Assembly (NCBI GenBank): GCA_016219705.1
Contig: JACRKQ010000010.1
Location: forward strand, 1-47,566
Direction: 5' to 3'
Length of the DNA: 47,566 nucleotides
Source: Candidatus Saganbacteria bacterium
Lineage (GTDB): Bacteria; Margulisbacteria; WOR-1; O2-12-FULL-45-9
Part shown: piece by piece, positions 12,797 to 41,799 of the stretch
Layout of the letters: each line of letters opens with the position of its first letter
How positions within the stretch are numbered: position 1 is the stretch's first letter
The notes under the pieces: generated by a model
What the model was told of the DNA's origin: nothing
Seen by the model: only the letters and a program-made list of their open reading frames with translations
Database searches by the model: none
Position numbers and translations under genes: made by a program

Positions 12797-15552
12797 TATG
12801 TGCAAAATTCCTTGATTATCTTTATCATATACTGTAATGTCCCAAAGGACATACCCGGATAAACTCCCACCCAAAAAGTTTGATTCATAATTAAATCTGT
12901 GTTAATTAAATGCCCAACGACCCGATAACCTTCTCCCGTTTTTCGCATCTCGTCAAAACAAGGATGTTTTACCATGTTCCCAGCAAAGAGCATTCTGGTC
13001 TGAATCCCTTTAGCTTCTAAGTGTTGAACAATTTTATCTCGATTAAACTTAACTCCAGACTTAACCGTCAATAAAAAACCAAACCAGCTTGGATCGGAAT
13101 TAGCTGTCGGTTCCGGCAAAATAAAATGATCTGACAAATCAGATAGCCCCGATCTTAATGTTTGCCAATTATTTTTCCTGGCTTCAATAAAACCAGACAG
13201 CTTCTCCAGCTGAGCACAACCAATCGCCGCCTGCATTTCTGTCGCCAATAAATTGTAGCCAAAATGAGAATAAGTGTATTTATGGTCATAACCATAAGGA
13301 AGAGCACCTAACTGCCGCTTGAAGCGTTTTTTACAGGTATCATCTTTTCCGGATGGACACCAGCAATCTCGTCCCCAGTCCCGGAGAGAATTTACAATTT
13401 TATTTAGCAACGGATCGTTCGTATAGACGGCTCCCCCCTCACCCATCGTATTATGTAAAAACACCCCTAAGAATCCGCCATAAAAGTTTTCTTGACCAGG
13501 AACAGAAAAGTCATAAACATATTCGTTCGCTTCATAGTCAATTTTTTGGACACTCCTTACCCTTAAAAAACTTACGTCCCCAGTAATTAATGAATATAAG
13601 TCTTTATTTGAAGCTACATATTGCGCCAGTCTTTTGCAGGAAATAACTTTTTGTTTTTTATTAACACTAATATATTTTCTAAATATGCTCAATAAAGGGA
13701 TCTGCAAGGCAAAATTATTTCTTTCTTTAATATTTTTTTTGATAATAGTATGTTTTCCATAAACATAGCCACTAAAACTCAATGTATAATTTTCATTCCC
13801 CTTAGTCAAACGCCCAGCAATTATCTTGTTTTTTTCGATATTCCTGCGATAAAAAGAAGCGCTAATACCTATTCTTGACAATAAATACTGAAAATCATTT
13901 AATAAGTCCTTAGAAACGCTTGTGACATCAATATTATTAGTGTTATCCGATTTATTCCTCATAGAACCATCACCCTTAGTATAACCATAGACAAAGGCTT
14001 TGATACAAGCAGCATCACTGTGATAAAGGAACCAGGGCAGGCGTTTGTTTTTAGCCCCTTTTTTGATCCCAAAAATCTCTAAAAATACGATCTCCAGATT
14101 CTTTGATTGAATTTTAACCACGGCAGAATGATCTTTTTCCCTAACAGTCACCGGCAAATCAAATAAAGACCTGACGATATTTTTTACGTCCCTAATTAAA
14201 TCTTTTTCTTGCCTATTAAAAGAGAAGACTAAGCCATTCTGGTAAGAACCCTCGGCAATAAAGTAACCAAGCAAGCGGCAAAGTTGTTCATTGATAAGTA
14301 AACGAGCTGGAATTTTCTTGCTGGATTGAAAAATGCCAACTTTAACATCGTCATTTTCTAAGTTGTATTCTTTTAAATATTTAATCGGCAGCGAGTTCCT
14401 GTCTTTAAGCTGCCATCTATAATCAGCATTTTTAACGTATTTTAAGTTGGCATGAGAAAAACCTGATATATACGCATTTTTGTTTTTAAAATGCTCTAAA
14501 ATATCTATATGATGTATTTCACCTGGTGTGGGGATATCGTTAGTTGCAACAACAAAATCATCTTCAGTTATTAGATCGGCGCGTTTCGGTAATATTTTTG
14601 CAGAATTATTGTCTAAGACAAACACGCTGTGATCTTCAGTCACTTCCACCGTTCTGCCATGCTGGCAAACAATTTTCAACATTTTTTTTGAGCCTAGTTT
14701 GTGTCTCAAAATAGAAAAAGGAGCAATCCAATTAACTTTATTTTCATTATTAAAAGATAATATTTTTATTGTTTCCAGTTTATCCGCATACAGCTGAAAT
14801 ATTTGTTCAATATTATCCAATTTCCAACGCCCATTCTCATCTAAATATGGAATTGGCGTATTTTTCGAACAACTCATATGGTGCGGTGGATAAAAGCTTG
14901 ACGTCCCGATATCTCCAATTGTTCCAGTATAATGCCATTTATCGTCTAATTTATATTTTGAGCCTAGAGAATCACAATTATCCTCAATTAAAAATAATTT
15001 ATGCTTATCACAAAAGCTTTTGACCGCCGCCAGATCAAAGGGATTGCCTAAAGTATGGGCCAGCATAACCGCTTTAGTCTTTTTAGATAAAGCTTTTTCA
15101 AGTTGTGAACAATCAATATTATATAAAGGCAAAGAGACGTCAACAAAGACAGGGACCGCACCGTATTGAATAATTGGGGCAATCGTCGTCGGGAAACCCG
15201 CCGCCACCGTAATAACTTCATCTCCAGGCTTAACCCGTCGATCCCCTAACTTAGAAGACGTAAGAGCCATAAAAGCCAAAAGGTTGGCCGAAGAACCGGA
15301 ATTAACCAATGAACAATATTTTATCCCTAAAAACTTCGCAAAATCTTTCTCAAACTGATCGGCATATCTTCCAGCCGTCAGCCAAAAATCAAGAGAGGCA
15401 TCAACTAGATTCGTTATCTCTTTTTCGTCAAACACCCTGCCTGCATAAGAAATTTTATCCCCCGGGTTAAAAGATTTTTTATTGGCATGATAATGCCGGT
15501 AATATTCTTCAACCAAAGCTTTAATTTTTTGTCGCAATTCTTTTTCAGACAT
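12796..15552 (-). CDS. rfbH: RfbH: CDP-4-keto-6-deoxyglucose-3-dehydrase (PLP, 2Fe-2S) precursor containing an intein
   Basis: 918-residue precursor. The flanks, residues 1-226 and 702-918, join into a 443-residue enzyme of the DegT/ColD/RfbH family, the normal length. RfbH (E1) removes the C3 hydroxyl of CDP-4-keto-6-deoxyglucose using PMP and one [2Fe-2S] cluster. The cluster cysteines are C193 (DNCDSLG) and, after the intein, C730, C732 and C740, in the E1 spacing C-x-C-x7-C. The catalytic His that replaces the usual PLP lysine is in SFYPPHHM. Spliced, this reads HHM-TMGEGGAVY, matching other RfbH proteins (usually HH[IM]TMGEGGAV). It overlaps rfbG by eight bases and the next gene at TAATG. 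The E3 reductase partner is not in the window. Confidence 0.95.
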   Translation of the reverse strand: MSEKELRQKIKALVEEYYRHYHANKKSFNPGDKISYAGRVFDEKEITNLVDASLDFWLTAGRYADQFEKDFAKFLGIKYCSLVNSGSSANLLAFMALTSSKLGDRRVKPGDEVITVAAGFPTTIAPIIQYGAVPVFVDVSLPLYNIDCSQLEKALSKKTKAVMLAHTLGNPFDLAAVKSFCDKHKLFLIEDNCDSLGSKYKLDDKWHYTGTIGDIGTSSFYPPHHMSCSKNTPIPYLDENGRWKLDNIEQIFQLYADKLETIKILSFNNENKVNWIAPFSILRHKLGSKKMLKIVCQHGRTVEVTEDHSVFVLDNNSAKILPKRADLITEDDFVVATNDIPTPGEIHHIDILEHFKNKNAYISGFSHANLKYVKNADYRWQLKDRNSLPIKYLKEYNLENDDVKVGIFQSSKKIPARLLINEQLCRLLGYFIAEGSYQNGLVFSFNRQEKDLIRDVKNIVRSLFDLPVTVREKDHSAVVKIQSKNLEIVFLEIFGIKKGAKNKRLPWFLYHSDAACIKAFVYGYTKGDGSMRNKSDNTNNIDVTSVSKDLLNDFQYLLSRIGISASFYRRNIEKNKIIAGRLTKGNENYTLSFSGYVYGKHTIIKKNIKERNNFALQIPLLSIFRKYISVNKKQKVISCKRLAQYVASNKDLYSLITGDVSFLRVRSVQKIDYEANEYVYDFSVPGQENFYGGFLGVFLHNTMGEGGAVYTNDPLLNKIVNSLRDWGRDCWCPSGKDDTCKKRFKRQLGALPYGYDHKYTYSHFGYNLLATEMQAAIGCAQLEKLSGFIEARKNNWQTLRSGLSDLSDHFILPEPTANSDPSWFGFLLTVKSGVKFNRDKIVQHLEAKGIQTRMLFAGNMVKHPCFDEMRKTGEGYRVVGHLINTDLIMNQTFWVGVYPGMSFGTLQYMIKIIKEFCT
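13450..14874 (-). other. Intein with LAGLIDADG homing endonuclease inside RfbH
   Basis: 475 residues (S227-N701 of the precursor), in frame. Block A is SCSKNTPI with Ser as the first residue. Block B has the TxxH motif (TEDH, residues 305-308). The two endonuclease motifs are LLGYFIAEG (427-435) and FVYGYTKGDG (520-529), each with the acidic residue intact. Block F is VYDFSVPGQENF (679-690). Block G ends GVFLHN with the penultimate His and terminal Asn, and the +1 extein residue is Thr. All nucleophiles for class 1 splicing are therefore present and the endonuclease looks intact, so both splicing and homing may be active. Cleavage with Cys228 as the first residue would leave an extra Ser in the enzyme and fits the family alignment less well. 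Confidence 0.95.
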
Positions 15553-29176: not shown

Positions 29177-29356
29177 TGTCTTATTTGCAAGAAGAAACCA
29201 CAGTTGGGGATGAAGGTTTCCCATAGTATGCACCATACTAAACGTAAATGGCTCCCCAACCTGCAAAAGATCAACATCCTTTACAAAGGCAAGAAACGCA
29301 AAGCTTACGTCTGCACCAAATGCTTAAAAGCCGGTAAAGTGCAGAAAGCGCTTTAG
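29165..29356 (+). CDS. rpmB: 50S ribosomal protein L28
   Basis: 63 residues, the normal length. It has the L28 core (VSHSMHHTKRKWLPNLQK) and two CxxC pairs, CLICKK near the start and CTKCLKAGKV near the end, so it is the zinc-binding form. It is a single-gene unit between recG (divergent) and fliJ (convergent, with the two stops overlapping by four bases). The message appears to start three bases before the ATG, with no ribosome-binding site. Confidence 0.97.
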   Translation: MSRQCLICKKKPQLGMKVSHSMHHTKRKWLPNLQKINILYKGKKRKAYVCTKCLKAGKVQKAL

Positions 29357-29826
29357 CTATTATCAGGGTGTTTGAACCGCTCGGTCGCAATTTCATCAAG
29401 AAATTTCGTCTCTAAATCCAGCAGCGCTTTTTGGTATTCTTTCAATTTCTTTTCCCTGTGTTTTTCCATAATTTTCTTGTCTTTCATCGAACTGATCAAT
29501 TGAGCCCGCTGTTCTTCTAAAATTTTGCTGGCCTCGATCACTTTTTCAACCTGGCGCGCCAGATCATCCTTGAGCACTTCTAAATGAGCTTTGCGCTGCA
29601 GCACTTTGGAAAAATCGGAGATCTGGCCCTTGCGAAAAACACCCCGTAGCTCTTCTTCGCGATCTTTTTTCGCCTGGGCGATCGCTTCTTCTTTCTGTTT
29701 TTCTATCATATAGGCTCGCTGTTTCTCCGCAAATTTCTCCTGTTCCTTTTTCTCCTTAATCGCGCGGACCTTCAAAACCGCCTGGAGATCATATTGGAAT
29801 TTCTTTCCGGTCTTGGGTTTTACCAT
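29353..29826 (-). CDS. fliJ: Flagellar export chaperone FliJ
   Basis: 157 residues, almost entirely charged helix with heptad pattern, as expected for the FliJ coiled coil that docks on the FliI hexamer and FlhA during flagellar export. It begins KKFQYDLQAVLKVRAIKEKKE, which matches the family's F-x-L-x-x-VL-x-x-R start. The gene lies 10 bases after fliI, with AAGGA before the ATG, and is the last gene of the flagellar operon. Its stop overlaps the convergent rpmB stop. Confidence 0.88.
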   Translation of the reverse strand: MVKPKTGKKFQYDLQAVLKVRAIKEKKEQEKFAEKQRAYMIEKQKEEAIAQAKKDREEELRGVFRKGQISDFSKVLQRKAHLEVLKDDLARQVEKVIEASKILEEQRAQLISSMKDKKIMEKHREKKLKEYQKALLDLETKFLDEIATERFKHPDNS

Positions 29827-29836
29827 GGCTTATTCC

Positions 29837-31156
29837 TTACCGAAAAATCGCAATAAGTCTTTGCACCGTATCTTCAAAGATGATCTTTTCAAACGTCCCT
29901 TGCCGCAGAAAATTATTCACCTGGTCAATTTTTGTTAAAGCGTAATCGATTTTTGGATTGCTCCCCTTGACGTAAGCGCCGATGTTGATCAAATCTTCCG
30001 CCTCCGTGTAACGCGCTATAACTTCACGGAGCTTGCCCGCAGCCTGCTTTTGTTCATCGCCGACCAGATTGGTCATCAATCGGGAGACACTGTGCGGCAC
30101 GTCAATCGCCGGATAATGGTTTTTCGCGGCTAAATCTCGCGACAGGACAATATGGCCGTCAAGGATGGAGCGCGAATGGTCGGCAATAGGCTCATTCATG
30201 TCATCGCCTTCAACCAGGATAGTATAAAAAGCGGTGATCGATCCGACTTCCGCCGTGCCCGAGCGCTCCATGAGGCGGGGCAATAAGGCAAAAACCGAAG
30301 GAGTATAGCCTTTTGTCGTCGGCGGTTCCCCCGCCGCCAGGCCGATTTCGCGCTGGGCCATGGCAAAACGAGTGGTTGAATCCATCATTAAAATAATGCT
30401 CTTCCCCTGATTGCGGAAATATTCAGCGATAGCCGTAGCTACAAAAGCCGCTTTCAGACGGATAAGAGGCGGCTGATCAGAGGTTGCGGCCACAACAACT
30501 GAACGCCGCAAGCCATCTTCGCCCAGAGACTCTTCAATAAAATCACGGACCTCGCGGCCGCGCTCGCCAACCAGGGCGATCACGTTAATATCAGCGGAAG
30601 CATTGCGGGCGATCATCCCCATGACAGTAGATTTGCCTACCCCCGAACCGGCAAAGATACCGATACGCTGGCCGCGGCCGACTGTCAGCATGCCGTCAAT
30701 GGCCCGGATCCCCACTTTCATTATCTCCGTAATCCGCGGCCGTTTAACGGGATCAGGCGGATCAGCGTCAAGAGGATAATCATTTTCGCCCATTATCGGA
30801 CCTTTACCGTCGATTGGCTCGCCCAAACCATTAAGCACCCGGCCTAATAAATCAGGCCCAACCCTAACCATCAGCGGCCGACCGGCGGCGACAACCTGCG
30901 CTCCCGGCGCGATACCGGCGGTCGAACCCAGCGGCATCAGCAACACCCGATTTTCGCGAAAGCCCACCACCTCGGCAAATGAACTGCGATTTTCTTTTTC
31001 AACTCTTATCGTGCAAAGATCGCCGACAGAGACGCCGCCAACCTGGGCTTCGATGATCAGGCCGACAACCTGCACCACTTTACCAATGACTTTTACCAGG
31101 TCGGTCCGTTCAATCACGCGAAGGTATTTATCAAAATCAATCTTTAGCGAGGCCAT
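29837..31156 (-). CDS. fliI: Flagellum-specific ATPase FliI
   Basis: 439 residues, the family length. ATPase of the flagellar type III export apparatus. Walker A is GIFAGSGVGKST, with ALVGERGREVRDFIEESLG, the Walker B strand IILMMDSTTRFAMAQREIGLAAGEPP and the PRLMERSG loop, all typical of FliI rather than F1 ATPase subunits. The ATG overlaps the fliH stop (TAATG), and fliJ follows, giving the standard fliH-fliI-fliJ order. Confidence 0.97.
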   Translation of the reverse strand: MASLKIDFDKYLRVIERTDLVKVIGKVVQVVGLIIEAQVGGVSVGDLCTIRVEKENRSSFAEVVGFRENRVLLMPLGSTAGIAPGAQVVAAGRPLMVRVGPDLLGRVLNGLGEPIDGKGPIMGENDYPLDADPPDPVKRPRITEIMKVGIRAIDGMLTVGRGQRIGIFAGSGVGKSTVMGMIARNASADINVIALVGERGREVRDFIEESLGEDGLRRSVVVAATSDQPPLIRLKAAFVATAIAEYFRNQGKSIILMMDSTTRFAMAQREIGLAAGEPPTTKGYTPSVFALLPRLMERSGTAEVGSITAFYTILVEGDDMNEPIADHSRSILDGHIVLSRDLAAKNHYPAIDVPHSVSRLMTNLVGDEQKQAAGKLREVIARYTEAEDLINIGAYVKGSNPKIDYALTKIDQVNNFLRQGTFEKIIFEDTVQRLIAIFR

Positions 31157-31866
31157 TAATGTTTTTCTTCTTCAGCGGCAATTTTTTTTAGCGCGTCTTC
31201 CAGTGATTTTAATTTCGTTGAAATTTTAGCGTCGATAAAACCTAAATTGGTCTCGACCACGCAGCCGCCGGCTTCGACGTTGGCGTCCTCTAAAATGGAA
31301 AAACTTTTCACTCCGTCCAGCATCCCCGCCAGGCGATCTTTATAACGCTTGAGGAATTCCGCATCATCATGGTTGACCCGGACAATAATTTGCTCGCGGT
31401 CAGAAACACGCGCAATCGCCTCGGCTACAATGTTCAAAGAGACATCGCGATGGAGCGAGACTTCCGATTTAATGATCTGTTCCGCCACCCTGATCGCCAA
31501 ACGCAGAATCTCCGGCTCCGCTTCTTTAATAATCGCTTTCCGCTCTTTGACCGCTTGATTAAGGGTGGCCAGCGCATCTTCGATCTGCGTCCCCGCCTCC
31601 GCCCGCCCTTCTTCGTAGCCGGTTTGTTTCGCCTCTTCACGGACATTTTCCGCTTCATTCAGCGCTTCGTCAACAATGCGCTGGGCTTGCAACTGGGCTT
31701 CTGGAATATTTTCCGTCGCTGGTTCCGCCGGCGCTTGAGCCGACGCGGCAGGGAGAGTCATCGCCGGTTTAAACTTTGGCCGGGGTTTGGCAATGATTGG
31801 CGCGGGCTGGCGCTCAATCATCACTGTCCCGCTGTCATGGATCAAATTTCTTTTAATTAATGCCAT
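31156..31866 (-). CDS. fliH: Flagellar assembly protein FliH
   Basis: 236 residues. Regulator and stator-like partner of the FliI ATPase. The N-terminal 60 residues are Ala/Pro-rich and disordered, followed by the charged helical region with GYEEGRAEAG, which matches the FliH glycine-repeat helix, and a C-terminal domain (LRLAIRVAEQIIKSEV, then IIVRVNHDDAEFLKRY and AGGCVVETNLGFIDAKISTKL) homologous to the ATP synthase delta fold. It overlaps fliI. Confidence 0.92.
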   Translation of the reverse strand: MALIKRNLIHDSGTVMIERQPAPIIAKPRPKFKPAMTLPAASAQAPAEPATENIPEAQLQAQRIVDEALNEAENVREEAKQTGYEEGRAEAGTQIEDALATLNQAVKERKAIIKEAEPEILRLAIRVAEQIIKSEVSLHRDVSLNIVAEAIARVSDREQIIVRVNHDDAEFLKRYKDRLAGMLDGVKSFSILEDANVEAGGCVVETNLGFIDAKISTKLKSLEDALKKIAAEEEKH

Positions 31867-31869
31867 GAT

Positions 31870-32331
31870 TTAAAAAATTAATTTATCCTTGAACTGTTCT
31901 CTCAAGCCTTGGGTAATTTTTTCCCGTAAATTGTTCCTTCTAATATGTCCGACTAATTGGAGAAGCACCGGTTTTTCCCGCGGTAAAGCCAGCAGCGCGT
32001 CCTCGTATTCCTGCGGCGGCAATTGGGATAAAATAAAAGCGGCCACCTGTGGCCTTTCATACATCAAGATTTGATATTGGCGTTTTGGCTGCCTGACCGC
32101 CGCCGGTTGGGCGATTTGCTGGACCGCGGGTTTCTCGGCTATGGCGACAAAATTACTAAGGTCAGCCAGCACCTCCGCCAGAGCGTCCGGCGAAGGCGAC
32201 GGGAGATGGTTAATATTGGCCGCGATTAAGTCGGCTAATTCATTGGGCAGATAACGCAAGACCCTGGACGCCGTTTCCGCTCCAAGGATCGAAAGAAAAA
32301 TTGTCGCTTTTTCCCGTCCGGTTAATGGCAT
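31870..32331 (-). CDS. fliG: Truncated FliG-like protein (N-terminal and middle domains only)
   Basis: 153 residues from the ATG at 32331, which overlaps the fliF stop (TAATG); a TTG at 32346 would add five. FliG is usually about 330 residues. Residues 2-45 (LTGREKATIFLSILGAETASRVLRYL) match the FliG N-terminal domain that binds FliF. Residues about 90-125 (YERPQVAAFILSQLPPQEY) match the middle domain with its EHPQ-like motif. The protein then ends, with no C-terminal domain to contact MotA. The next gene, fliH, starts four bases later, so no remnant of the missing part exists here. The reading frame is clean, so a sequencing frameshift is unlikely. A full-length FliG may be encoded elsewhere. 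Confidence 0.85.
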   Translation of the reverse strand: MPLTGREKATIFLSILGAETASRVLRYLPNELADLIAANINHLPSPSPDALAEVLADLSNFVAIAEKPAVQQIAQPAAVRQPKRQYQILMYERPQVAAFILSQLPPQEYEDALLALPREKPVLLQLVGHIRRNNLREKITQGLREQFKDKLIF

Positions 32332-33839
32332 TACTCGCTTAACCAATCCCGAAGCAGTTCCGCGATACGCTCGGGATTCCTCTCCACCGCCGCTTTTATA
32401 TTCTCCAACGCGGTGACTTTTTCCTGGTTAAGCGGCGCCACGGAAGGCAGCGGCCGCGAGGGCGGCAGGCTGGGCTCCAGCGCCGGCCGAACAGCAGGTT
32501 TTGGCTGCCGCAGCGCGCGCCAGACCAGGACAACAACAAAGCCGCCCAAAACCACCAACAATAACCAGGCCAGGTTCCATAACCAACCGACGTGAATAAT
32601 TAATTTTGTTTGTGATTTCCCCGATGGTAAAGGTTTCTCCGTTTCGCCGCGGACAATCTCCGGCGGCGAAGAAGCAAGGTGAAAAGGAACCAATTGTAGC
32701 ACGATCTTATCACCGCGCCGTTTATTATAAGCCACGGCCGCCGCCACAGCTTTAAAAGTTGTTTGTTTTAATTGTTTGGACAAATCAAGCCGGTTATCAA
32801 TCAAGACCACAGTAATAACCCGTTTTATTTTTAATTCTTCTTTTTTGAGCAATTCGACCTTGGTTTTGTTTAATTCAATATTCGTTTTGACAATAACGCT
32901 GTTGAGAGGATAAAAGCGATTCAAAATTTCTTGAGCTTTACCAGCTAAATCATGCTCCAGCTCCTTTTTCGCCTGCCTCACCAGTAAAACTTTTCCCGCT
33001 GCCTCCGGAGTTGTAATGATCGCAGGCAGGACGGCTTTAGACATCAAAGTTGTTGAGGGAACACTGGTTGTTGTCGAAATCATAGGTAAAGTTGTAGTAG
33101 TTAGAGATGATGGCGGCGCAGCGCTGACCTCTTGAGAAATTTCCATTTCTGGCATCGGCATCAGAGAAACAGTCCTAGCTGATTTTGCCGTTAAAATTCG
33201 GCCGGTATTATCAATGATCGTCACATTTTCCGGCTGAAGGTTTTCCACGCTGCTGGCGACTAAATGGATTATCCCGGTGATTTTTTCCGCCGCCAGTTCG
33301 GCGCCAAGATGCAGGCGCAGCATAACCGCCGCCGTTACCGGAGCGACATTTTCAGCAAAAAGTTTTGTCTCCGGGATAACAATTTGCACCCGGGCATCCT
33401 CTACTCCTTGGATCCGTCTGATCGTCCGGGATAATTCACCGGAGATCGCCCGGATCAATTGGATGCGGCGGTCAAAATCAGTCGCGCCAAGTTTTGATTG
33501 GTCAAAAATTTCCCAACCGACAACCCCGCCGGCTGGCAGGCTTTTTTCCGCCAACCCCAGCCGCGCTTCATCCGCCTTGGCCTTGGGGACAGCAATCGAA
33601 CGCCCCTCCTCCCTGATTTCATAAGGGATGCTTAATTCTTTAAGGCGGGCGATGGCATTGGCCGCATCCTTCAATTCCATATTGGAATAGATCAGGGTAA
33701 AACCGCTGGAGCTGCGCGCGGCCGAACTGCAGCCGCGTACTAAAAAAATAAATATGGTGATTATTAAGACAGCGGCAACGCCGCCTAAAAGCAGAATCCG
33801 CCGGATATCAAAACCGCCTGGCGCCGCTGGTTCAGCCAT
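32331..33839 (-). CDS. fliF: Flagellar MS-ring protein FliF
   Basis: 502 residues, slightly shorter than the usual 550 or so. It forms the inner-membrane MS ring. A membrane helix near residues 15-37 is followed by ring-building domains: SNMELKDAANAIARLKEL, then GWEIFDQSKLGATDFDRRIQ, TIRRIQGVEDARVQIVIPE and ENVTIIDNTGRIL, all classic FliF text. A Thr/Pro-rich linker (about residues 235-285) precedes the third domain. The second membrane helix is near 412-434. The C-terminus ENIKAAVERNPERIAELLRDWL is the FliG-binding helix. GGGAGGG precedes the ATG. Confidence 0.95.
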   Translation of the reverse strand: MAEPAAPGGFDIRRILLLGGVAAVLIITIFIFLVRGCSSAARSSSGFTLIYSNMELKDAANAIARLKELSIPYEIREEGRSIAVPKAKADEARLGLAEKSLPAGGVVGWEIFDQSKLGATDFDRRIQLIRAISGELSRTIRRIQGVEDARVQIVIPETKLFAENVAPVTAAVMLRLHLGAELAAEKITGIIHLVASSVENLQPENVTIIDNTGRILTAKSARTVSLMPMPEMEISQEVSAAPPSSLTTTTLPMISTTTSVPSTTLMSKAVLPAIITTPEAAGKVLLVRQAKKELEHDLAGKAQEILNRFYPLNSVIVKTNIELNKTKVELLKKEELKIKRVITVVLIDNRLDLSKQLKQTTFKAVAAAVAYNKRRGDKIVLQLVPFHLASSPPEIVRGETEKPLPSGKSQTKLIIHVGWLWNLAWLLLVVLGGFVVVLVWRALRQPKPAVRPALEPSLPPSRPLPSVAPLNQEKVTALENIKAAVERNPERIAELLRDWLSE

Positions 33840-33853
33840 TTATCCCTCCCTGA

Positions 33854-34216
33854 TTAGACTTGCAGCTGCGTTATTTCTTTGAACGACGTGACAGCCGCAT
33901 TGATTGTCGTGATTGCTAAATTGACCTCGATGCTGGCCTTTGATTGGGCGACCATCACATCCTGCATTTCCGCCTCGCCGCGTAAATATTTATCAATTAA
34001 TCCGTTAGCATAAATTTCTGATCGGCTGACCCCTTCAAGAGAATTAATGGCTTTGGCCAGGACATCATCAAACATATTGCCGGGGAATTTATTGACGCTC
34101 TCCAGAGTCCCCGGCGCCGGGCCGACAGCCGATTGTGAAGCCTGGGCCATAGAATCTTCGCCTAAGATCTGCGCCAATCTCATCTCCGCATTAATCGGTC
34201 CAATGCTTTCTATCAT
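33854..34216 (-). CDS. fliE: Flagellar hook-basal body protein FliE
   Basis: 120 residues. FliE links the MS ring to the proximal rod. The C-terminal half shows the family pattern: FDDVLAKAINSLEGVSRSE followed by MQDVMVAQSKASIEVNLAITT. A GGGAGGG site lies just upstream of the ATG. It lies between flgC and fliF, the usual order flgB-flgC-fliE-fliF. Confidence 0.93.
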   Translation of the reverse strand: MIESIGPINAEMRLAQILGEDSMAQASQSAVGPAPGTLESVNKFPGNMFDDVLAKAINSLEGVSRSEIYANGLIDKYLRGEAEMQDVMVAQSKASIEVNLAITTINAAVTSFKEITQLQV

Positions 34217-34248: not shown

Positions 34249-34680
34249 TCATGGCAGCTGCATGGTGTCTTGCATCATTTTTTTTGTGGCGTTAAAAGCC
34301 GTAATATTCGCCTCATAAAGACGCGAAACGTACATCAGGTCAGCCATTTCCTTGGAGTAACTGACATTAGGAAAAGAGACAAAACCCTGGGCGTCAGCGT
34401 CCGGATGTCCGGGCTTATAAACTCTCTGGAAAGGCGCAGCGTCTTCGACCACCTGGTCCACGGCCACCCCGCCCCCCTCCAGGCGATTTTCTGCCTGCAT
34501 AAGTTCATCAGAAAAAGATAACGGCTTTTCTCCCAGGACGGCGATCCGGCGGCGGTAAGGGCCGCCCAACACTGTCCTGGTGGTATTGATATTGGCCAGG
34601 TTGGAAGCAATTAATTCCATCGTTAAACGCTGGGCATCCAACCCCGATAAACTAATCTCCAGTGCGCGATCAAATCCCAT
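34249..34680 (-). CDS. flgC: Flagellar basal-body rod protein FlgC
   Basis: 143 residues. Proximal rod subunit. The N-terminal helix GLDAQRLTMELIASNLANINTT is the rod/hook signature, and the C-terminus (MADLMYVSRLYEANITAFNATKKMMQDT) is the paired helix; PYRRRIAVL and GHPDADAQGFVSFPNV are typical of FlgC. GGAGG precedes the ATG, in the gap of six bases after flgB. Confidence 0.95.
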   Translation of the reverse strand: MGFDRALEISLSGLDAQRLTMELIASNLANINTTRTVLGGPYRRRIAVLGEKPLSFSDELMQAENRLEGGGVAVDQVVEDAAPFQRVYKPGHPDADAQGFVSFPNVSYSKEMADLMYVSRLYEANITAFNATKKMMQDTMQLP

Positions 34681-34686
34681 CAGTCA

Positions 34687-34992
34687 TTACCTCCTTCCCT
34701 GCGTGGCAATAGCTTTCAAGATACTAATTTTTGATGAGAGCAATTTCACATAAGCGGAATACTTCATGGAATTTTCCGTCAATGACGCTAATTCATCTTC
34801 CAGCACGACCTGCTTTTGGTCCTGGCGTTTGACCGCCCGCATCAGCTCTTCATCAAAAACTAAAGGCTGGTAGCCGGGTGTTTTCGCATTGGCAATGTTA
34901 TGGGAGATTGTTTCCTGACGCTTGGCCGCGATGGTCATACTCCGTTCCAAATCAGCAAACTGCGCGTCAAATAGGCCAACCGGTTCAGTCAT
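34687..34992 (-). CDS. flgB: Flagellar basal-body rod protein FlgB
   Basis: 101 residues, a short FlgB. It has the rod signature ETISHNIANAKTPGYQP near residues 28-44 and the C-terminal helix ENSMKYSAYVKLLSSKISILK. The typical FlgB length is about 130 and this one is compact in the middle. It overlaps fliA by eight bases. Confidence 0.92.
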   Translation of the reverse strand: MTEPVGLFDAQFADLERSMTIAAKRQETISHNIANAKTPGYQPLVFDEELMRAVKRQDQKQVVLEDELASLTENSMKYSAYVKLLSSKISILKAIATQGRR

Positions 34993-35701
34993 GTTTTAAC
35001 TTCGCTTTGATCATTTTTATGGCTTTAGCCAGGACCCGGCAGACTTTAGGCCGGGACAAATTGAGCTGGGAAGCAATCGTTCTTTGGCTAAGCCCCTGGT
35101 GATAAAAGAGCTCCAAAACCTGACGATCATCCGGCGGCAAACTTTGCACGATACCGCGCAATTTTATTTTTAATTCGCTGAATTCCAATTCCGCCGCCGG
35201 TGTTGTTTCGCCGGGGACAGGCGCTTCGACTCCCACCTCCGCCATCTCTTCGATCGATAATAAATACATCAAGGCCGAGGCAGAGACAATTTTTTTTATC
35301 CGTTTGAGCGCTTGCTTGAATTCGTCTTCCGTCAGTTCTTTTTTTTCCAAAAGCTTGTCGGCTTCTTCTTCTTTACGAGTAGACACTGATTTAGCGCCAT
35401 TTTTCGCCAGGTCGCGCACCATGACCTGGACACGGTACGGTACAGGATTGTAATTTTTCAGGCCATCAAGCATCTCCCCGCGGATCCGGTAAGAAGAATA
35501 TGTCTCAAATTTGACGCCGCGATCGGGATCAAAATTTTCCCAGGCTTTCATCAAGCCGATAGTGCCGTCAGAGACAAGGTCATCGTATTCAATGTTGGGC
35601 GGCAGTCCGCGGCTGGAAACCATCGCCGCAATTGAATGCACCAGCGGCATATAAGCTTCCACTGATTTTGGCAGGTTTTTTTTAGCTTTTATTTTCGTCA
35701 A
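34985..35701 (-). CDS. fliA: Flagellar sigma factor FliA (sigma-28)
   Basis: 238 residues. Region 2 is seen in YMPLVHSIAAMVSSRGLPPNI followed by EYDDLVSDGTIGLMKAWENFD and FETYSSYRIRGEMLDGLK, typical of sigma-28. Region 4 has LPPDDRQVLELFYHQGLSQRTIASQLNLSRPKVCRVLAKA, with its helix-turn-helix. It would direct RNA polymerase to late flagellar genes and would normally be held back by FlgM, which is not seen here. The start is a TTG at 35701 with only a weak ribosome-binding site. It is placed between the flgJ-like gene and flgB, an uncommon position. Confidence 0.95.
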   Translation of the reverse strand: MTKIKAKKNLPKSVEAYMPLVHSIAAMVSSRGLPPNIEYDDLVSDGTIGLMKAWENFDPDRGVKFETYSSYRIRGEMLDGLKNYNPVPYRVQVMVRDLAKNGAKSVSTRKEEEADKLLEKKELTEDEFKQALKRIKKIVSASALMYLLSIEEMAEVGVEAPVPGETTPAAELEFSELKIKLRGIVQSLPPDDRQVLELFYHQGLSQRTIASQLNLSRPKVCRVLAKAIKMIKAKLKHD

Positions 35702-35702
35702 A

Positions 35703-36041
35703 TTATAAACCGCCCGTTTTTAAATTTTGGTCGGGAAATAAATCCGCGGCGGAAAAGGCTTTACTTCTCGCCAATTCCAGGGCCATCTGGTTGACCAGCA
35801 TGTCGCTGGCAAACAAAGAACCCATGGAAGCTTCTTTTTCATCACTTAAACTAATTTGCGGCGGATGGATAAAATTTTTCAATACTTCTTTATAAAATAA
35901 AGAGAGGAATTCCTCTTTTATCTCCTGCCGCTCATCATCAGTCCGGGCAATTTTAGCGCGCTCCAGCAAACCAGAGTCGGAAACGGCCTGGGTTAAATCA
36001 TTGCTGCCGCGGCCAAGAGGACTGGTAAATAAATCAGCCAT
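35703..36041 (-). CDS. flgJ: FlgJ-like rod-binding protein without muramidase domain
   Basis: 112 residues from the ATG at 36041, which overlaps the flgI stop (TGATG) and has GGAGG seven bases upstream. It corresponds only to the N-terminal rod-binding domain of FlgJ: EEFLSLFYKEVLKNF (the usual FExxFLxxMLKxMR-like helix) and FASDMLVNQMALELARS. The C-terminal peptidoglycan hydrolase found in enteric FlgJ is absent, as in many other phyla. It lies after flgI, the normal FlgJ position. Confidence 0.85.
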   Translation of the reverse strand: MADLFTSPLGRGSNDLTQAVSDSGLLERAKIARTDDERQEIKEEFLSLFYKEVLKNFIHPPQISLSDEKEASMGSLFASDMLVNQMALELARSKAFSAADLFPDQNLKTGGL

Positions 36042-37132
36042 CAAATTACCTCCAGCTCCGCTTTAATCGCCCCGGCCTGCTTCATCGCCTGTAAAATGGA
36101 AATCAGGTCCTGAGGAGTCGCGCCAACAGCATTAAGCGCTCTGACCAGCGAAGATAAGGTTGTGCTCCCAGTGACCATCGTTAATTTCCCCTGGATCTGT
36201 TTTAATTTGGCCACGGAACTGGCGCGAAAGCGATTATTTCCCGGCAGCGTTTCCGCCCCGCCTTCGGAAAAGAGAGCGACATCGCCGATAATAATATCAA
36301 AACCAGCGTAGGAAACGGCCACTGGCGCAATTTTGACCTTATCACCGATGACAATTGTCCCCGTCCTTTCATTGATGATGATTTTAGCGACCGTATCCGG
36401 CACGATAGTTAAATTTTCGACCATGGCGGCCAATTCCACTGGATCTTTATCTTCCGCCCGCACCACCACCACCGTCCCCGCATCTTTAGCCGCCGCATCA
36501 AGGCCGGCCTGCCGCATCTTACCGGCCAACCTGTTAGCCGTCGTGAAATCTGGATCATCTAGGACAAGGGTTAACAAATTTTTACTGGCAAATGATACCG
36601 GGACCTCTTTTTCGACCAGAGCGCCCCCGGCAATCCGGCCGACTGTCGTCTGCCGTTGTTTCACGTATGGCACCGTCGGGTTACCGGCCGCTACGCCGAC
36701 CAATAAACTTCCCTGGGCGACAGCGTAGACCTGGTCATCAACCCCGCGCAGGGGAGTGATCAACAGCGTCCCGCTCTGCAGTGACAACGCGTCGCCAACG
36801 GAAGAGACCGTGACATCGATTTTTTGCCCCGATTTAACAAAAGGCGGCAAAGTCGCCGTTACCATTACAGCCGCAGCATTACGGGAACGGAAATCGATCG
36901 TTTGCGGCACAACGCCCATTCTCGACATTAAATTTGTTAAAGCCTGCTGGGTGAAACCTGTTTGGCTCCGGTCGCCGGTATTGCTCAAACCGACAACCAG
37001 GCCAAAACCTATGAGCTGGTTATCGCGCGCTTCCAGCACATGGGCGATGTCTTTGACGCGGACCGGCGTCTGGGCAAAGACCGCGGCGCTGACGACAATT
37101 AAAAATAACGCGGCTAATGATGATCGACGCAC
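36041..37132 (-). CDS. flgI: Flagellar P-ring protein FlgI
   Basis: 363 residues from a GTG at 37132 that has AAGGAG seven bases upstream; an earlier in-frame start at 37156 lies inside flgH and is less likely. A signal peptide spans about residues 1-20. The family's VKDIAHVLEARDNQLIGFGLVVGLSNTGD, NAAAVMVTATLPPFVKSGQKIDVTVSS and IIINERTGTIVIGDKVKIAPVAVS text is complete. It forms the periplasmic P ring, so the cell has peptidoglycan in a periplasm. Confidence 0.96.
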   Translation of the reverse strand: MRRSSLAALFLIVVSAAVFAQTPVRVKDIAHVLEARDNQLIGFGLVVGLSNTGDRSQTGFTQQALTNLMSRMGVVPQTIDFRSRNAAAVMVTATLPPFVKSGQKIDVTVSSVGDALSLQSGTLLITPLRGVDDQVYAVAQGSLLVGVAAGNPTVPYVKQRQTTVGRIAGGALVEKEVPVSFASKNLLTLVLDDPDFTTANRLAGKMRQAGLDAAAKDAGTVVVVRAEDKDPVELAAMVENLTIVPDTVAKIIINERTGTIVIGDKVKIAPVAVSYAGFDIIIGDVALFSEGGAETLPGNNRFRASSVAKLKQIQGKLTMVTGSTTLSSLVRALNAVGATPQDLISILQAMKQAGAIKAELEVI

Positions 37133-37143
37133 TTTTTCACTCC

Positions 37144-37734
37144 TTAAAATAACCAATTAATAAACCGGACTAACCAGCCAGGCGACTCTGTCTCCGCCAC
37201 AACCCCCGTCCCCTGGACCGTCAATTCGGCATCCGCCACCTGGTAAGAAAAAATCGTATTGGCTCCGCTAATATCTTTGGGCCTGACCAGGCCGGTAATG
37301 GTGATATCCTGGGTCTCATTATTGACCTGGACGCGATGATGCCCCTCTATCCGCAAGTTGCCATTTGGCAAGACTTCTTTTACCCAGGCGGAAATTCGCG
37401 CCTGGACGCTACTGTCGCGGGAGGTCTGCCCCAATCCCTGGTATTTATTAGCTGCTTGTCCGGTCAAAGAATTACTGGCGCCGATAATCGGTGCTAATTT
37501 TGCGATCGTATGGTTAAGCTTGGCGCTTAAATCATCGCGGATGTCGGTCTTTGTCCCCGCCCGGTTCTGCGCCGTCGTATTTTCCAGGATGATAATATTT
37601 ACAATATCACCCAAACGATACCCTTTTTCCGTGCTGTAAGGCGAGGCGCTCTCTTTTTCGTTCCAGATCGAATCCGCCGTCGCCGCCCCAACCAGGCAGA
37701 GCGCCGCAAAAATCAAAAACAGGCGTCGCTTCAT
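37144..37734 (-). CDS. flgH: Flagellar L-ring protein FlgH
   Basis: 196 residues from the ATG at 37734, which has AGAGGTG upstream; an in-frame start at 37758 would add eight residues. It forms the L ring in the outer membrane, so the organism is diderm. Characteristic text: YRLGDIVNIIILENTTAQN, then NGNLRIEGHHRVQVNNETQDITITGLVRPKDI and ISAWVKEVLPNG. The signal peptide (MKRRLFLIFAALCLVGAATA) has no clear lipobox at its end, whereas enteric FlgH is a lipoprotein; the only cysteine is inside the hydrophobic stretch. Confidence 0.95.
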   Translation of the reverse strand: MKRRLFLIFAALCLVGAATADSIWNEKESASPYSTEKGYRLGDIVNIIILENTTAQNRAGTKTDIRDDLSAKLNHTIAKLAPIIGASNSLTGQAANKYQGLGQTSRDSSVQARISAWVKEVLPNGNLRIEGHHRVQVNNETQDITITGLVRPKDISGANTIFSYQVADAELTVQGTGVVAETESPGWLVRFINWLF

Positions 37735-37754
37735 TTTTTTCACCTCTACATTAA

Positions 37755-38492
37755 TCAAGGAGAAATTATTTCCACTTCATTAGTGGAAACCAATGTCCCA
37801 TTCAATATGCCCTGCGCGCCAGCAATCCCTTTACGCCTAACTTTGATCGGCTCAGCCAGATAGCCGTCAACCAACGCCACACCGTCCGCTTTCACTAAAA
37901 AGTTCTCTCCTTTAACTAGTATCTTAACCGGCTCTCCAGCCCGGACCAGAGGGACCGCCCTGACCATCCACTTGAATATCGTGCTATTTTCCGGGATCAT
38001 CGCGCTGGCCTCATTGCCCGGCAAAAGGGCCGGGTCAGTATAAAAGCCTGATGGAAGCAAGGCAATATCACGCGCCTCAACAGACAGGTCGGCGGATATA
38101 ATTTTTTTTCCGCGCCGGATCAGATGCTTGGCAAAAACAATCGGTTTGAAAACTGCTACCCGCGCCCTTACAAAAAAATTCTGATTATTGCCGCCATCAC
38201 TTGCCTCTACAGGGAAAATCACGTTGCCGACCGGCTTAAAATCGCGATCAATATCAACCACGCTCAAGGCCGCGGTTTCGCTTAATTTCTGCAGTTCCTG
38301 GAAAATTTTTTCCGCAAATTTAAATTCCACCCTGATATCGGCGCCAGCCCATTCCGGATTAGCGCCGGCGACATAATTATTAATCAACTTGCTAACCTTT
38401 GTTTGCGGATCGGTTAAGGCGCCAGCCTGGCCGCACCATAGCCAGCCAAGACAGCAAAACAACAACCATATTATACTTTTACTTTTTTTCAC
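37755..38492 (-). CDS. flgA: P-ring assembly chaperone FlgA (SAF domain)
   Basis: 245 residues from a GTG at 38492 with an AAAGGT site upstream; a TTG at 38495 is the alternative. The N-terminal signal sequence covers about residues 1-27. The C-terminal SAF/FlgA region includes KKIISADLSVEARDIALLPSG and AGEPVKILVKGENFLVKADG, then YLAEPIKVRRKGIAGAQGILNGTLVSTNEVEI. The chaperone assists FlgI assembly in the periplasm; it is next to flgH and flgI as expected. Confidence 0.92.
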   Translation of the reverse strand: MKKSKSIIWLLFCCLGWLWCGQAGALTDPQTKVSKLINNYVAGANPEWAGADIRVEFKFAEKIFQELQKLSETAALSVVDIDRDFKPVGNVIFPVEASDGGNNQNFFVRARVAVFKPIVFAKHLIRRGKKIISADLSVEARDIALLPSGFYTDPALLPGNEASAMIPENSTIFKWMVRAVPLVRAGEPVKILVKGENFLVKADGVALVDGYLAEPIKVRRKGIAGAQGILNGTLVSTNEVEIISP

Positions 38493-38503
38493 CAAAATGA
38501 CCT

Positions 38504-39301
38504 TTATTGTTTCATCCTATCAACACTGGTCAGCATCGCTTCATAAGACTGCACTGCTTTGGTGACCGAGTCAAAAACTCTCTGCACCATGACCATGCGC
38601 ATCATTTCGGAAATTACATTGACATTTGACTGCTCCAGGGCAAACTGGTTGATCGCCCCAAAGCCATTGTCTCCAGCGGTCCCCACCAGCGGCTCGCCGG
38701 AAGCTTCAGCAGCCTGAAAGATATTTTGGCCTAAACTTTTTAACCCCGCCGGATTGGTGAATCGGGCTAAGTTAATTTGGCCGATTTCGGAAAAAGTACT
38801 TTCGTTGTTAAGCGCCACTTGCACTATGCCGTCGCGACCGATGCTGATCGACGTCGTCCCTTCAGGAATAATAATCGCCGGTTCCAGTTTATGTCCATTG
38901 GGATCAACGAGGTTCCCTTCATTATCCAGATGCAAATTGCCCGCCCGGCCGTAAGCATTGGTCCCATCGGGCAGCTTAAAGATAAAAAAGCCATCACCTT
39001 TGATAGCGATATCCAATGGATTGCTCGTCGTGTCAAAGGCCCCTTCAGTAAAATCATGCGGCGTGGCGGCCACCCGCACCCCGGTGCCGTGTTCAACATT
39101 GACCGGCGGCGTTGCCGTGCCAGTCATGGCGAAATTAAGCTGGTCCTGGAAACTCTTTTCGACAAAAAAGAGACTTTCCATGTCTGAACGGCCTTTTTTA
39201 AAGGCCACCGTTTTAGCGTTAGACAAGTTGTTGGTGATATCAAGAATTTCGTCCTGCATTGCGTCAAGTCCAGTCGCGGCGACATACAATGGCTGAAACA
39301 T
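38504..39301 (-). CDS. flgG: Flagellar distal rod protein FlgG
   Basis: 265 residues, the family length. It begins MFQPLYVAATGLDAMQDEILDITNNLSNAKTVAFKKGR, the FlgG signature. Central DIAIKGDGFFIFKLPDG is typical, and the C-terminus ALEQSNVNVISEMMRMVMVQRVFDSV matches the paired helix. AAAGGGGG precedes the ATG. It is the second gene of the basal-body operon. Confidence 0.95.
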   Translation of the reverse strand: MFQPLYVAATGLDAMQDEILDITNNLSNAKTVAFKKGRSDMESLFFVEKSFQDQLNFAMTGTATPPVNVEHGTGVRVAATPHDFTEGAFDTTSNPLDIAIKGDGFFIFKLPDGTNAYGRAGNLHLDNEGNLVDPNGHKLEPAIIIPEGTTSISIGRDGIVQVALNNESTFSEIGQINLARFTNPAGLKSLGQNIFQAAEASGEPLVGTAGDNGFGAINQFALEQSNVNVISEMMRMVMVQRVFDSVTKAVQSYEAMLTSVDRMKQ

Positions 39302-39317: not shown

Positions 39318-40055
39318 TTACGGAGTGGCTTTCCCCAGCTCCATGGCTCGGCTCAAGTTACCATCCCGAGTTTGCATCAATTTTGCGTTTATGCTCTGGA
39401 GCCTCTCTAATGATATCATTTCCACCATCTGTTCCATGATGTTAACATTTGATGTTTCAATGTATCCCTGGACGATTCGCGGAGTTTCCACATTCAAGAA
39501 GATAATATCGGGATTGCTTTTTTTAAAAATACTGCCGTTAAGAGATTCTAACTCGCCAGGCGTTTCTGGTTTGACGACCTTTAAATGGTTCGCTTCCACC
39601 CCGTCGATCATCACCTGGCCAGTCTGCGTCACAGTCACATCAGCCCCCTGTGTCACGACAATCGGCCCATTATTCCCCAGCACCGGAAAATTACCGGCCA
39701 CCGACAATAACCGGCCTTCTTTATCAAGACGGAAACGACCATCCCGCGTATAGCCTTCTCCCCATGGCCCCTGCAGGACAAAAAAACCTTCGCCGCCTAA
39801 AGCCAGATCTAATTTACCGCCGGTTTTGGCTAAAGTCCCGGCCGCATTATTAATAAAAGTGCCGTCAACCTGGGGTTTCATGGCCGAAACGCGCTGTTCA
39901 GCCGCTGCTAATTCGAGAGGAAAACCACGGACAATCACCTCTGACTTTTTGTAACCAGGCACTTCCGCGCCAACCATATTGTCCATCAGCTTGCGGACTT
40001 TTTGATCAGCGCTGTCTAAACCCTCCTGCCCGATCTCAAAAATTCTGTCGGTCAT
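39318..40055 (-). CDS. flgF: Flagellar rod protein FlgF-like (FlgF/FlgG family)
   Basis: 245 residues. It has the rod/hook N-terminal helix (MDNMVGAEVPGYKKSEV), the central LDLALGGEGFFVLQGPWGEGYTRDG and the C-terminal helix ETSNVNIMEQMVEMISLERLQSINA. The first position in the operon and pairing with flgG support FlgF. The mRNA would start about three bases before the ATG, without a ribosome-binding site. Confidence 0.92.
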   Translation of the reverse strand: MTDRIFEIGQEGLDSADQKVRKLMDNMVGAEVPGYKKSEVIVRGFPLELAAAEQRVSAMKPQVDGTFINNAAGTLAKTGGKLDLALGGEGFFVLQGPWGEGYTRDGRFRLDKEGRLLSVAGNFPVLGNNGPIVVTQGADVTVTQTGQVMIDGVEANHLKVVKPETPGELESLNGSIFKKSNPDIIFLNVETPRIVQGYIETSNVNIMEQMVEMISLERLQSINAKLMQTRDGNLSRAMELGKATP

Positions 40056-40125: not shown

Positions 40126-40503
40126 TTACGGTCGCTTTTTGTCTTTCTCTTCTTCCTTCAGCCGCTCAACCACCCGCTCGCGTTTTTGGGTCATGCGGTC
40201 AAGCTTGTAGACAAAAAATAAGACTTCCGCCACCAGAGTGTAAAGCTCGGGCGGTATTTCCGTGTCCAGCTCTAATTTAGTCAACAGTTTGGCCAGTTCG
40301 GGATCTTCATAAAGGGGTATCTGGTTGTCCTCGGCAATTCGTAAAATTTCGTCCGCCACCAGGCCGCGGCCGGAAGCGATGACCAACGGCGCCCGATCGC
40401 GATCTATATCATAACGAATGGCGACTGCGGCTTTACGTTTCTCCGGCGTTTTCGTCTCACCTTCGCCCGCTTCGTCAATTTTATTAATGTTTTCTTCCGC
40501 CAC
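40126..40503 (-). CDS. FlhB C-terminal domain homologue (YlqH/FhlB-like)
   Basis: 125 residues from a GTG at 40503, with GGAGG just before it across the FliK-like stop. The middle (AVAIRYDIDRDRAPLVIASGRGLVADEILRIAEDNQIPLYEDPELAKLL) matches the cytoplasmic tail of the export-gate protein FlhB, but there is no membrane region and no NPTH autocleavage motif (the start corresponds to the region after it). In Bacillus the equivalent YlqH is a stand-alone FlhB-C homologue encoded next to a FliK-like YlqG, the same pairing as here. It may modulate substrate-specificity switching; this is inferred. Confidence 0.85.
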   Translation of the reverse strand: MAEENINKIDEAGEGETKTPEKRKAAVAIRYDIDRDRAPLVIASGRGLVADEILRIAEDNQIPLYEDPELAKLLTKLELDTEIPPELYTLVAEVLFFVYKLDRMTQKRERVVERLKEEEKDKKRP

Positions 40504-41799
40504 TTAGGCCTCCAAATCGATCCTTTTTAAGACGCTTTCCAATGATGACAACATGGGTATCAGATAAGATTTTATGTGGCTCATGGCCGGATCAACTTTC
40601 ACTTGATAACCGGTGATGGAAAAGTTCTTATCGCTTAATTTTTTTTGGAAATCGCCATACTCCCGCGCGATAGCGGCGCGTCCTTGCTCACCGTAATCTT
40701 TCTCGGAAAAAACAAACACGACATAGACTTTGTTATCTTTTATGTACAGGGAAACGACAATGCGGCCAAGATTAGTCGTTTCCAGCGACATGATAACTTG
40801 CGTATTGCGCGGATCAACCGCTGAACCTTTCCCTTCGCCGTCGCGCTTGACGACAATTTCCAAATCTTTCGGCGGCGTGGTCATAGCATTGGGAATCTGC
40901 TGGTAAAGATAATTTACCTCCGAGCGCCCCGGCTGCGAAAGGAGCGCCTGGGCCAGCATATTATCCATGACGCCATCGAGCTTACCGTGAAATTCCATTA
41001 AAGCGGAAGAAAGAGCTTGCGCTTCTTTACTGTTTGAGGCCGGCGCTTTATCCTGCACTCCGGCCAATAAAGCTTTGAGCGCCCGCGCGTCATTGAGGGT
41101 TGTCTGTCGGGTAACTGTGGCTTTATTACCGGTCGCTTTTTCCGAAAGATTGCGAAAAGATTCATCAAATTGCGACAGGAGCGTTCCCAATTGAGAAACA
41201 AGGTTAGCGTCAAGCAGACCTTTCCCCATTCCCATAGCGGAATTTAAATTCCCTACCGCTTGCTGCAGCGCGCCAAATTGTTGGGCCAAACCGGGATTCT
41301 GGGAAAAATATTGGCCTAAAACTTTCGCCGCCTGCGGCGAATCGATCCCTTTCATCAACAAAAGCAGGGAAGATTCCTGCATCGCCGGCGATTTATCCGA
41401 TCCCTGCAGCATTGTCGCCAGGCGGACAAAATTGGGACGGGAAAGTTCCACACCGTTGCGCAGCATGAGAGAAGCTAATTTAGTATTGAAATCATTTGGT
41501 TCAACCTGAATATTTAATAAATGGGAACGAACATCTTCGATGGTGAGCGCTCTGGCAATTGTCGGAGCTGCTGCCGCCGGAGCAGCCGGTGCGGCAGGAG
41601 CCGCTGTTTGCGGGGCGCGGGTTGGGGCAACTTCACCGGGTCTGGTCGGCGCCGCCTGGGTAGGAATACCGCGCGCGCCGCCGGCAGTTTGACTTTGTGG
41701 AGTTGAACTAACAGGAGCGCTGGCCGATTTACCGGTCGGCCAAATGATTGGCTTACCAGGATGGACACCGCCGCCTTCGGTGTTAAAATTACCGCCCAT
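40504..41799 (-). CDS. FliK-like protein (YlqG-like) with Ala/Pro-rich linker
   Basis: 431 residues. The first 80 residues are Gly/Pro/Ala/Gln-rich, including an Ala-Pro run (about residues 65-80). The middle is helical with no known domain. The C-terminal 110 residues (VIMSLETTNLGRIVVSLYIKDNKVYVVFVFSEKDY and the following G-x-QVKVDP text) resemble the hook-length control protein FliK C-terminal domain, in which the LGRVEV motif is conserved. It is next to the FlhB-C homologue, and GGGAG precedes the ATG. Whether it is the actual hook-length protein cannot be told, since flgD and flgE are not in the window. Confidence 0.75.
   Translation of the reverse strand: MGGNFNTEGGGVHPGKPIIWPTGKSASAPVSSTPQSQTAGGARGIPTQAAPTRPGEVAPTRAPQTAAPAAPAAPAAAAPTIARALTIEDVRSHLLNIQVEPNDFNTKLASLMLRNGVELSRPNFVRLATMLQGSDKSPAMQESSLLLLMKGIDSPQAAKVLGQYFSQNPGLAQQFGALQQAVGNLNSAMGMGKGLLDANLVSQLGTLLSQFDESFRNLSEKATGNKATVTRQTTLNDARALKALLAGVQDKAPASNSKEAQALSSALMEFHGKLDGVMDNMLAQALLSQPGRSEVNYLYQQIPNAMTTPPKDLEIVVKRDGEGKGSAVDPRNTQVIMSLETTNLGRIVVSLYIKDNKVYVVFVFSEKDYGEQGRAAIAREYGDFQKKLSDKNFSITGYQVKVDPAMSHIKSYLIPMLSSLESVLKRIDLEA

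Follow-up and report, generated by a model that had tools for sequence, protein, structure and literature searches.

A FliG without its torque domain in a flagellum-related, probably non-rotating type III export machine of the Saganbacteria

The Saganbacteria (WOR-1), a class of the Margulisbacteria, carry throughout the class a full basal body with no motor and a FliG protein that is cut at a domain boundary, so that it consists of the N-terminal and middle domains and ends before the C-terminal torque domain. FliG binds FliF through FliG_N and FliM through FliG_M, and makes contact with the stator through FliG_C. The gene was studied in a window, i.e., the whole stretch of 47,566 nucleotides analysed here, from a draft genome of this class. 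The short FliG is probably the complete functional form of the protein, a static adaptor that joins the FliF ring to a FliM/FliN-like sorting platform within a non-rotary type III export machine related to the flagellum. Gene and domain content, conservation, a clade of its own and the folds of both FliG domains are established by sequence, whereas a static adaptor, the lack of rotation and active secretion are inferred. With the genes for stators, hook cap and filament gone as well, the machine most likely serves protein secretion and not swimming.

The arrangement is a natural experiment on the N-terminal and middle domains of FliG in the absence of torque, and the fli and flg gene names used here would wrongly predict motility for the Saganbacteria. 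How injectisomes evolved from flagella is an old problem, and the intermediate that has been proposed, a flagellum without motility, is to our knowledge represented only by reduced systems. No description of the present system was found in the open-access literature on flagella or type III secretion in Margulisbacteria or Saganbacteria, as far as its incomplete coverage extends.

The short FliG and its gene neighbourhood

The window's fliG is a clean open reading frame of 153 codons that starts with ATG; an alternative upstream TTG start gives a protein of 158 amino acids. This ATG shares one base with the TAA stop codon of fliF (TAATG), and the ATG of fliH begins 3 bases past the fliG stop, so that there is no space for a lost C-terminal domain. 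Pfam recognised FliG_N (E 8e-10) and, in two stretches, FliG_M (E 1e-11), and did not find FliG_C in the 153 residues. A profile of the short-FliG family aligned with the N-terminal and middle domains only of solved FliG structures, e.g., with residues 10–186 of the 329 of Aquifex FliG (3hjl), and the conserved FliG_M motif ERPQ is present. The protein scored 33.7 bits against the NCBIfam FliG equivalog cut-off of 226.7, which it thus failed. It possesses the FliF-binding and FliM-binding domains that define FliG and lacks the torque domain. The original prediction of a two-domain FliG of 153 residues in a clean frame, located in the operon place of fliG and coupled to fliF and fliH, was borne out by Pfam, profile, fold and relatives, as well as by the overlap and gap at its two junctions.

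An AlphaFold model of the short FliG built with 27 homologues reached a mean pLDDT of 85 and superseded an earlier model from 13 sequences, in which the N half was weak (pLDDT 71.5). Foldseek matched the first half to FliG_N of the FliF-FliG complex 5tdy (1.9 Å over 66 columns) and the second half to FliG_M of the FliM-FliG complex 4qrm (1.6 Å over 67 columns), matches that are read per domain, as the model has a low pTM (0.47) and does not give the mutual arrangement of the domains.

The genes surrounding fliG are listed in Table 1, and their order, read from the FliK-like protein down to FliJ, recurs in loci of a genome collection, in which a few genes are unrecognised or lie beyond contig ends. 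The FliG-binding C-terminal tail of FliF, NPERIAELLRDWLSE, was found to be conserved when tails were compared. Elsewhere in the window, positions 12796-15552 encode a 918-amino acid protein resembling DegT/AHBA-type aminotransferases, with an apparent internal intein, located by eye, between 'SSFYPPHHMS' and 'HNTMGEGGAVYTND'.

Table 1. Components of the window locus in operon order, and stand-alone operons of putative torque modules from other Margulisbacteria families
Feature	Location	Strand	Evidence or remarks
FliK-like protein	window 40504..41799	-	Pfam Flg_hook 5e-4, below curated cut-off; conserved place
Stand-alone FlhB C-terminal-domain protein	window 40126..40503	-	Pfam Bac_export_2 5e-21, profile 261-335
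FlgF (rod)	window 39318..40055	-	Pfam FlgE/F/G D1 + Flg_bbr_C
FlgG (distal rod)	window 38504..39301	-	Pfam FlgE/F/G D1 + Flg_bbr_C
FlgA (P-ring chaperone)	window 37755..38495	-	Pfam ChapFlgA 2e-17
FlgH (L ring)	window 37144..37758	-	Pfam FlgH 7e-47
FlgI (P ring)	window 36041..37156	-	Pfam FlgI 1e-108
FlgJ-like rod protein	window 35703..36044	-	position only; no Pfam match; relatives in same place
FliA/WhiG-like sigma factor	window 34985..35701	-	Pfam Sigma70_r2 + r4
FlgB (proximal rod)	window 34687..34992	-	Pfam Flg_bb_rod; position
FlgC (proximal rod)	window 34249..34680	-	Pfam Flg_bb_rod + Flg_bbr_C; position
FliE	window 33854..34216	-	Pfam FliE 7e-11
FliF (MS ring)	window 32331..33839	-	Pfam YscJ_FliF 7e-57 + FliF_C
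Short FliG, 153 aa	window 31870..32331	-	FliG_N ~3-58, linker, FliG_M ~85-150, no FliG_C; Pfam + fold + conservation
FliH (ATPase regulator)	window 31156..31866	-	Pfam FliH 1e-20
FliI (export ATPase)	window 29837..31156	-	NCBIfam FliI_clade2 above cut-off; Pfam
FliJ	window 29353..29826	-	Pfam FliJ 5e-8
FliF_C-like, FliG with FliG_C, MotA, MotB	L082:5150-8694 (G051:C117)
FliF_C-like, FliG with FliG_C, MotA, MotB	L088:660-4545 (G045:C61)
Same operon type	L087:4445-10632 (G043:C15)	-	anchor unrecognised by Pfam
FliF_C-FliG_M-FliG_C fusion	L081:6896-9820		fusions ~485-630 aa
FliF_C-FliG_M-FliG_C fusion	L083:6786-9726
FliF_C-FliG_M-FliG_C fusion	L085:3781-6517
FliF_C-FliG_M-FliG_C fusion	L086:7915-10139
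Listed with the fusions	L052:8072-11957		FliG_C protein split over two adjacent ORFs

A second locus, on contig C94 of the same genome (L045), encodes a FliK-like protein, a 270-amino acid FlgE-like protein, a 407-amino acid FliM-like protein, FliN, FliO, FliP, FliQ, FliR, FlhB and FlhA. The FliM-like protein is missing the N-terminal LSQxEIDAL segment of the E. coli and Bacillus proteins, has LGSxD where FliM has GGxG, carries an acidic tail past its SpoA domain, and failed the NCBIfam FliM cut-off (62.9 vs 219.6). Because the GGxG loop that meets FliG_M is altered, the contact between FliG_M and the FliM-like protein is putative here. FlhB and FliI are flagellar by NCBI family models, and FlhA barely passed its NCBI cut-off (773.7 vs 772.1). 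Together, the two loci retain the export gate, ATPase, MS ring, rod, P and L rings and a C-ring remnant; no secretin was recognised among their genes. Downstream of flhA (L045:10262-17112) lie a 1028-amino acid secreted-type protein with a linker rich in Thr and an end that is weakly FlgD-Ig-like and, after it, two proteins of ~610-630 amino acids that resemble PorV-like barrels with SLH repeats.

Distribution of the short FliG, motor parts and candidate torque modules

A single copy of the short FliG per genome, located between fliF and fliH and with an identical end point, was present in 30 of the 31 genomes of the class, the sole exception being a genome that is 79% complete. Most of these genomes are drafts; the window's own is 87% complete and was searched by family and in stretches, and 18 of the 30 others are at least 90% complete, among them G010, a single 1.67-Mb contig in which the short FliG is the only one. 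The same protein occurred in 23 contigs of a GTDB genome collection that partly overlaps the 31 class genomes, and a scan of named genomes matched it only in Saganbacteria/WOR-1 and other Margulisbacteria.

FlhA was found in 30 of the 31 class genomes. Searches of all 31 found no flagellin (flagellin_N), MotA (MotA_N), MotB (MotB_plug) or hook cap FlgD, and no FliG_C, either by Pfam, with the model run on a positive control, or by a profile that had been made with FliG_C proteins from within the phylum. Across 57 related genomes of the phylum, which are not independent trials, FliG_C and MotB co-occur almost perfectly: both were found in 17 and neither in 39, and one (G041) had only a weak partial FliG_C match. 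The simplest reading of this co-occurrence is that the torque domain persists only in the presence of a stator, with the short FliG being a static adaptor between ring and sorting platform.

In other families of the Margulisbacteria, FliG_C also occurs outside flagella, in operons that encode a membrane protein with a FliF_C domain, FliG, MotA and MotB, or in FliF_C-FliG_M-FliG_C fusions, after which come MotA and, on contigs that extend far enough, MotB (Table 1). The operons on L082, L087 and L088 contain no export or filament genes, and several genomes with FliG_C outside flagella lack flagellin, e.g., G043 and G051. Operons and fusions alike resemble torque modules that come without export genes, the counterpart of the window's machine, and the three operons possibly represent an undescribed torque module such as a gliding or envelope motor. 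Neighbouring lineages thus have either the machine together with a true flagellum or the motor module by itself, so that the modular division of the flagellum into halves for export and for torque can be tested by comparison.

Phylogenetic position and comparison with known systems

Genome G034, from a sister family in the phylum, carries a complete flagellar locus, with a full FliG of ~333 amino acids, FlgD, MotAB and flagellin, and, separately, a short-FliG system with a 181-amino acid FliG and the same gene order; other flagellated families of the phylum have two FlhA genes per genome. The case that the original prediction had set against itself, a relative in which this short protein belongs to a system other than a flagellum, was in effect found: in G034, the motorless system stands beside a separate, complete flagellum.

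The short-FliG system formed a single clade with full support in a tree of FlhA. In a tree of six genes (FlhA, FlhB, FliP, FliQ, FliR and FliI; 1997 columns), it was a clade by itself (100/100), apart from each of the 12 flagella sampled, also those from the same phylum, and distinct from the sampled SctV clade (100/100). The trees, which are unrooted and cover 3-4 long-branched injectisome references and a small number of flagellar phyla, place the system on the SctV side of the flagella. An origin from the phylum's own flagellum was rejected by the AU test (p=0.015 for FlhA; p=0.005 for six genes), as was a clade uniting the system with the flagella of Firmicutes and of the phylum (p=0.015). 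By the sequences of its core genes, the system belongs neither with ordinary flagella nor with injectisomes.

Like the bacterial flagellum, the system has FliF, FliH, FliI, FliJ, FlhA, FlhB, FliOPQR, FliE, FlgB, FlgC, FlgF, FlgG, FlgA, FlgH, FlgI, FliN and a FliA sigma factor, and among the parts by which a flagellum is defined, the export gate, ATPase, MS ring, rod and P and L rings are present. Unlike the flagellum, it has no FliG_C, MotA, MotB, FlgD or flagellin, its FlgE-like protein is only 270 amino acids long, and its core genes form their own clade instead of nesting among the 12 sampled flagella. It resembles the injectisome, or non-flagellar type III secretion system (NF-T3SS), in that it has a type III gate and ATPase but no motility genes and most likely does not serve for swimming. 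The rod genes FlgB, FlgC and FliE exclude a system from the NF-T3SS (Abby and Rocha, 2012; PMC3459982), and here all three are present, together with P and L rings; nor do the core genes fall within the SctV clade, as represented by 3-4 references. The secretin-less systems of the Myxococcales are without FlgBCDEK, FliE, FliG and FlgH (PMC3459982), whereas rod proteins, FlgH and part of FliG are kept in the Saganbacteria.

Reduced flagella offer another comparison. Buchnera aphidicola keeps basal bodies without motility. As there and in Lysobacter, export and basal-body genes survive in the present system without flagellin and motor, but those are recent losses in single lineages, while the Saganbacterial state is class-wide, with a common, domain-precise truncation of FliG and a phylogenetic position apart from the flagellum. 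In Lysobacter, fliG was lost altogether, with flgB and fliE, and an active export system was retained (PMC9927559). As read from its genes, the Saganbacterial system would function like a type III secretion system that lacks a motor and is built on a basal body; it is a member of neither defined group.

A non-motile intermediate between the flagellum and the injectisome was inferred by Abby and Rocha (2012; PMC3459982). Tentatively, the present system may be a living relative of this intermediate that has retained rod and rings and, of FliG, the adaptor half, i.e., a third type III branch that was present in the ancestor of the Margulisbacteria and is sister to injectisomes, although this is considered the less probable outcome. 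In this reading, the complementary motor half (FliF_C-FliG-MotA-MotB) exists in the same phylum as a machine by itself.

Proposed machine and alternative readings

In the proposed machine, the FliF ring would be capped at its C-terminal tail by the N-terminal domain of the short FliG, whose middle domain would hold the platform of FliM-like protein and FliN. This adaptor would place FliM/FliN and, via FliH, the FliI ATPase beneath the FlhA/FlhB/FliPQR gate, from which protein would exit through a rod of FlgB, FlgC, FlgF, FlgG and the short FlgE-like protein and, at the P and L rings, traverse the outer membrane. Secretion is suggested because gate, ATPase and channel parts are intact, and the torque domain of FliG would be absent because there is no stator for it to act on. 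Among the options offered in the original prediction, a ring-assembly paralogue came closest, but the difference extends to the whole machine, since it also lacks stators, hook cap, flagellin and the end of FliM that binds CheY.

An alternative that is unlikely, yet the strongest of those considered, holds that the structure is a short, non-rotating surface appendage of rod and FlgE-like tip, used for attachment or signalling, with export serving its own assembly only. The retention of the 270-amino acid FlgE-like protein and of two FliK-like proteins would fit such an appendage, whereas the lack of a FlgD cap for hook growth and of flagellin, and the failure to identify an adhesin-like substrate, argue against it. 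Decay of a flagellum after loss of motility in the lineage, the remaining genes being relics, is improbable: it predicts the joint absence of motor, hook cap and flagellin genes that was observed, but it is difficult to reconcile with open frames, a fixed gene order and one conserved FliG end point across at least nine families, with the occurrence of the same system beside an intact flagellum in G034, with a clade separate from the phylum's flagella, and with the class-wide retention of the same 20-odd genes, which is unlike relics.

A rotary flagellum with a split FliG, in which a torque domain encoded elsewhere has diverged too far for Pfam and unusual stators and filament are used, is more improbable still. 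Other families of the phylum do have FliG_C in separate proteins beside MotA-like genes; those proteins, however, bring their own FliF-like anchor and MotAB, and FliG_C was absent from the window's genome and the 30 others of the class even with the profile made from them, as were MotB, FlgD and flagellin. The earlier suggestions that FliG is divided between two genes or that a second, full FliG exists were accordingly not upheld, each genome of the class that has a FliG having one. Finally, a frameshift or gap in sequencing or assembly that hides a longer fliG has next to no probability and is refuted by relatives: the window does come from a draft genome, and on contig L067 the junction of fliF and fliG is masked by a run of N, but the same short end recurs in 30 of 31 genomes, fliH lies directly downstream, and the models are full-length and of high confidence. 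An apparent natural FliF-FliG fusion on that contig (L067:4633-6564; G018; 643-amino acid frame) was rejected, as the run of N spans the junction.

For the preferred reading of a motorless export machine, several points count on the other side, namely, the draft state of most genomes, the altered GGxG loop of the FliM-like protein, the retention of a FliA-like sigma factor and the occurrence of CheW-domain proteins in four of the 31 class genomes. The latter genomes (G019, G023, G026 and G029) are all without flagellin and MotB, and their CheW proteins may serve another output, e.g., type IV pili.
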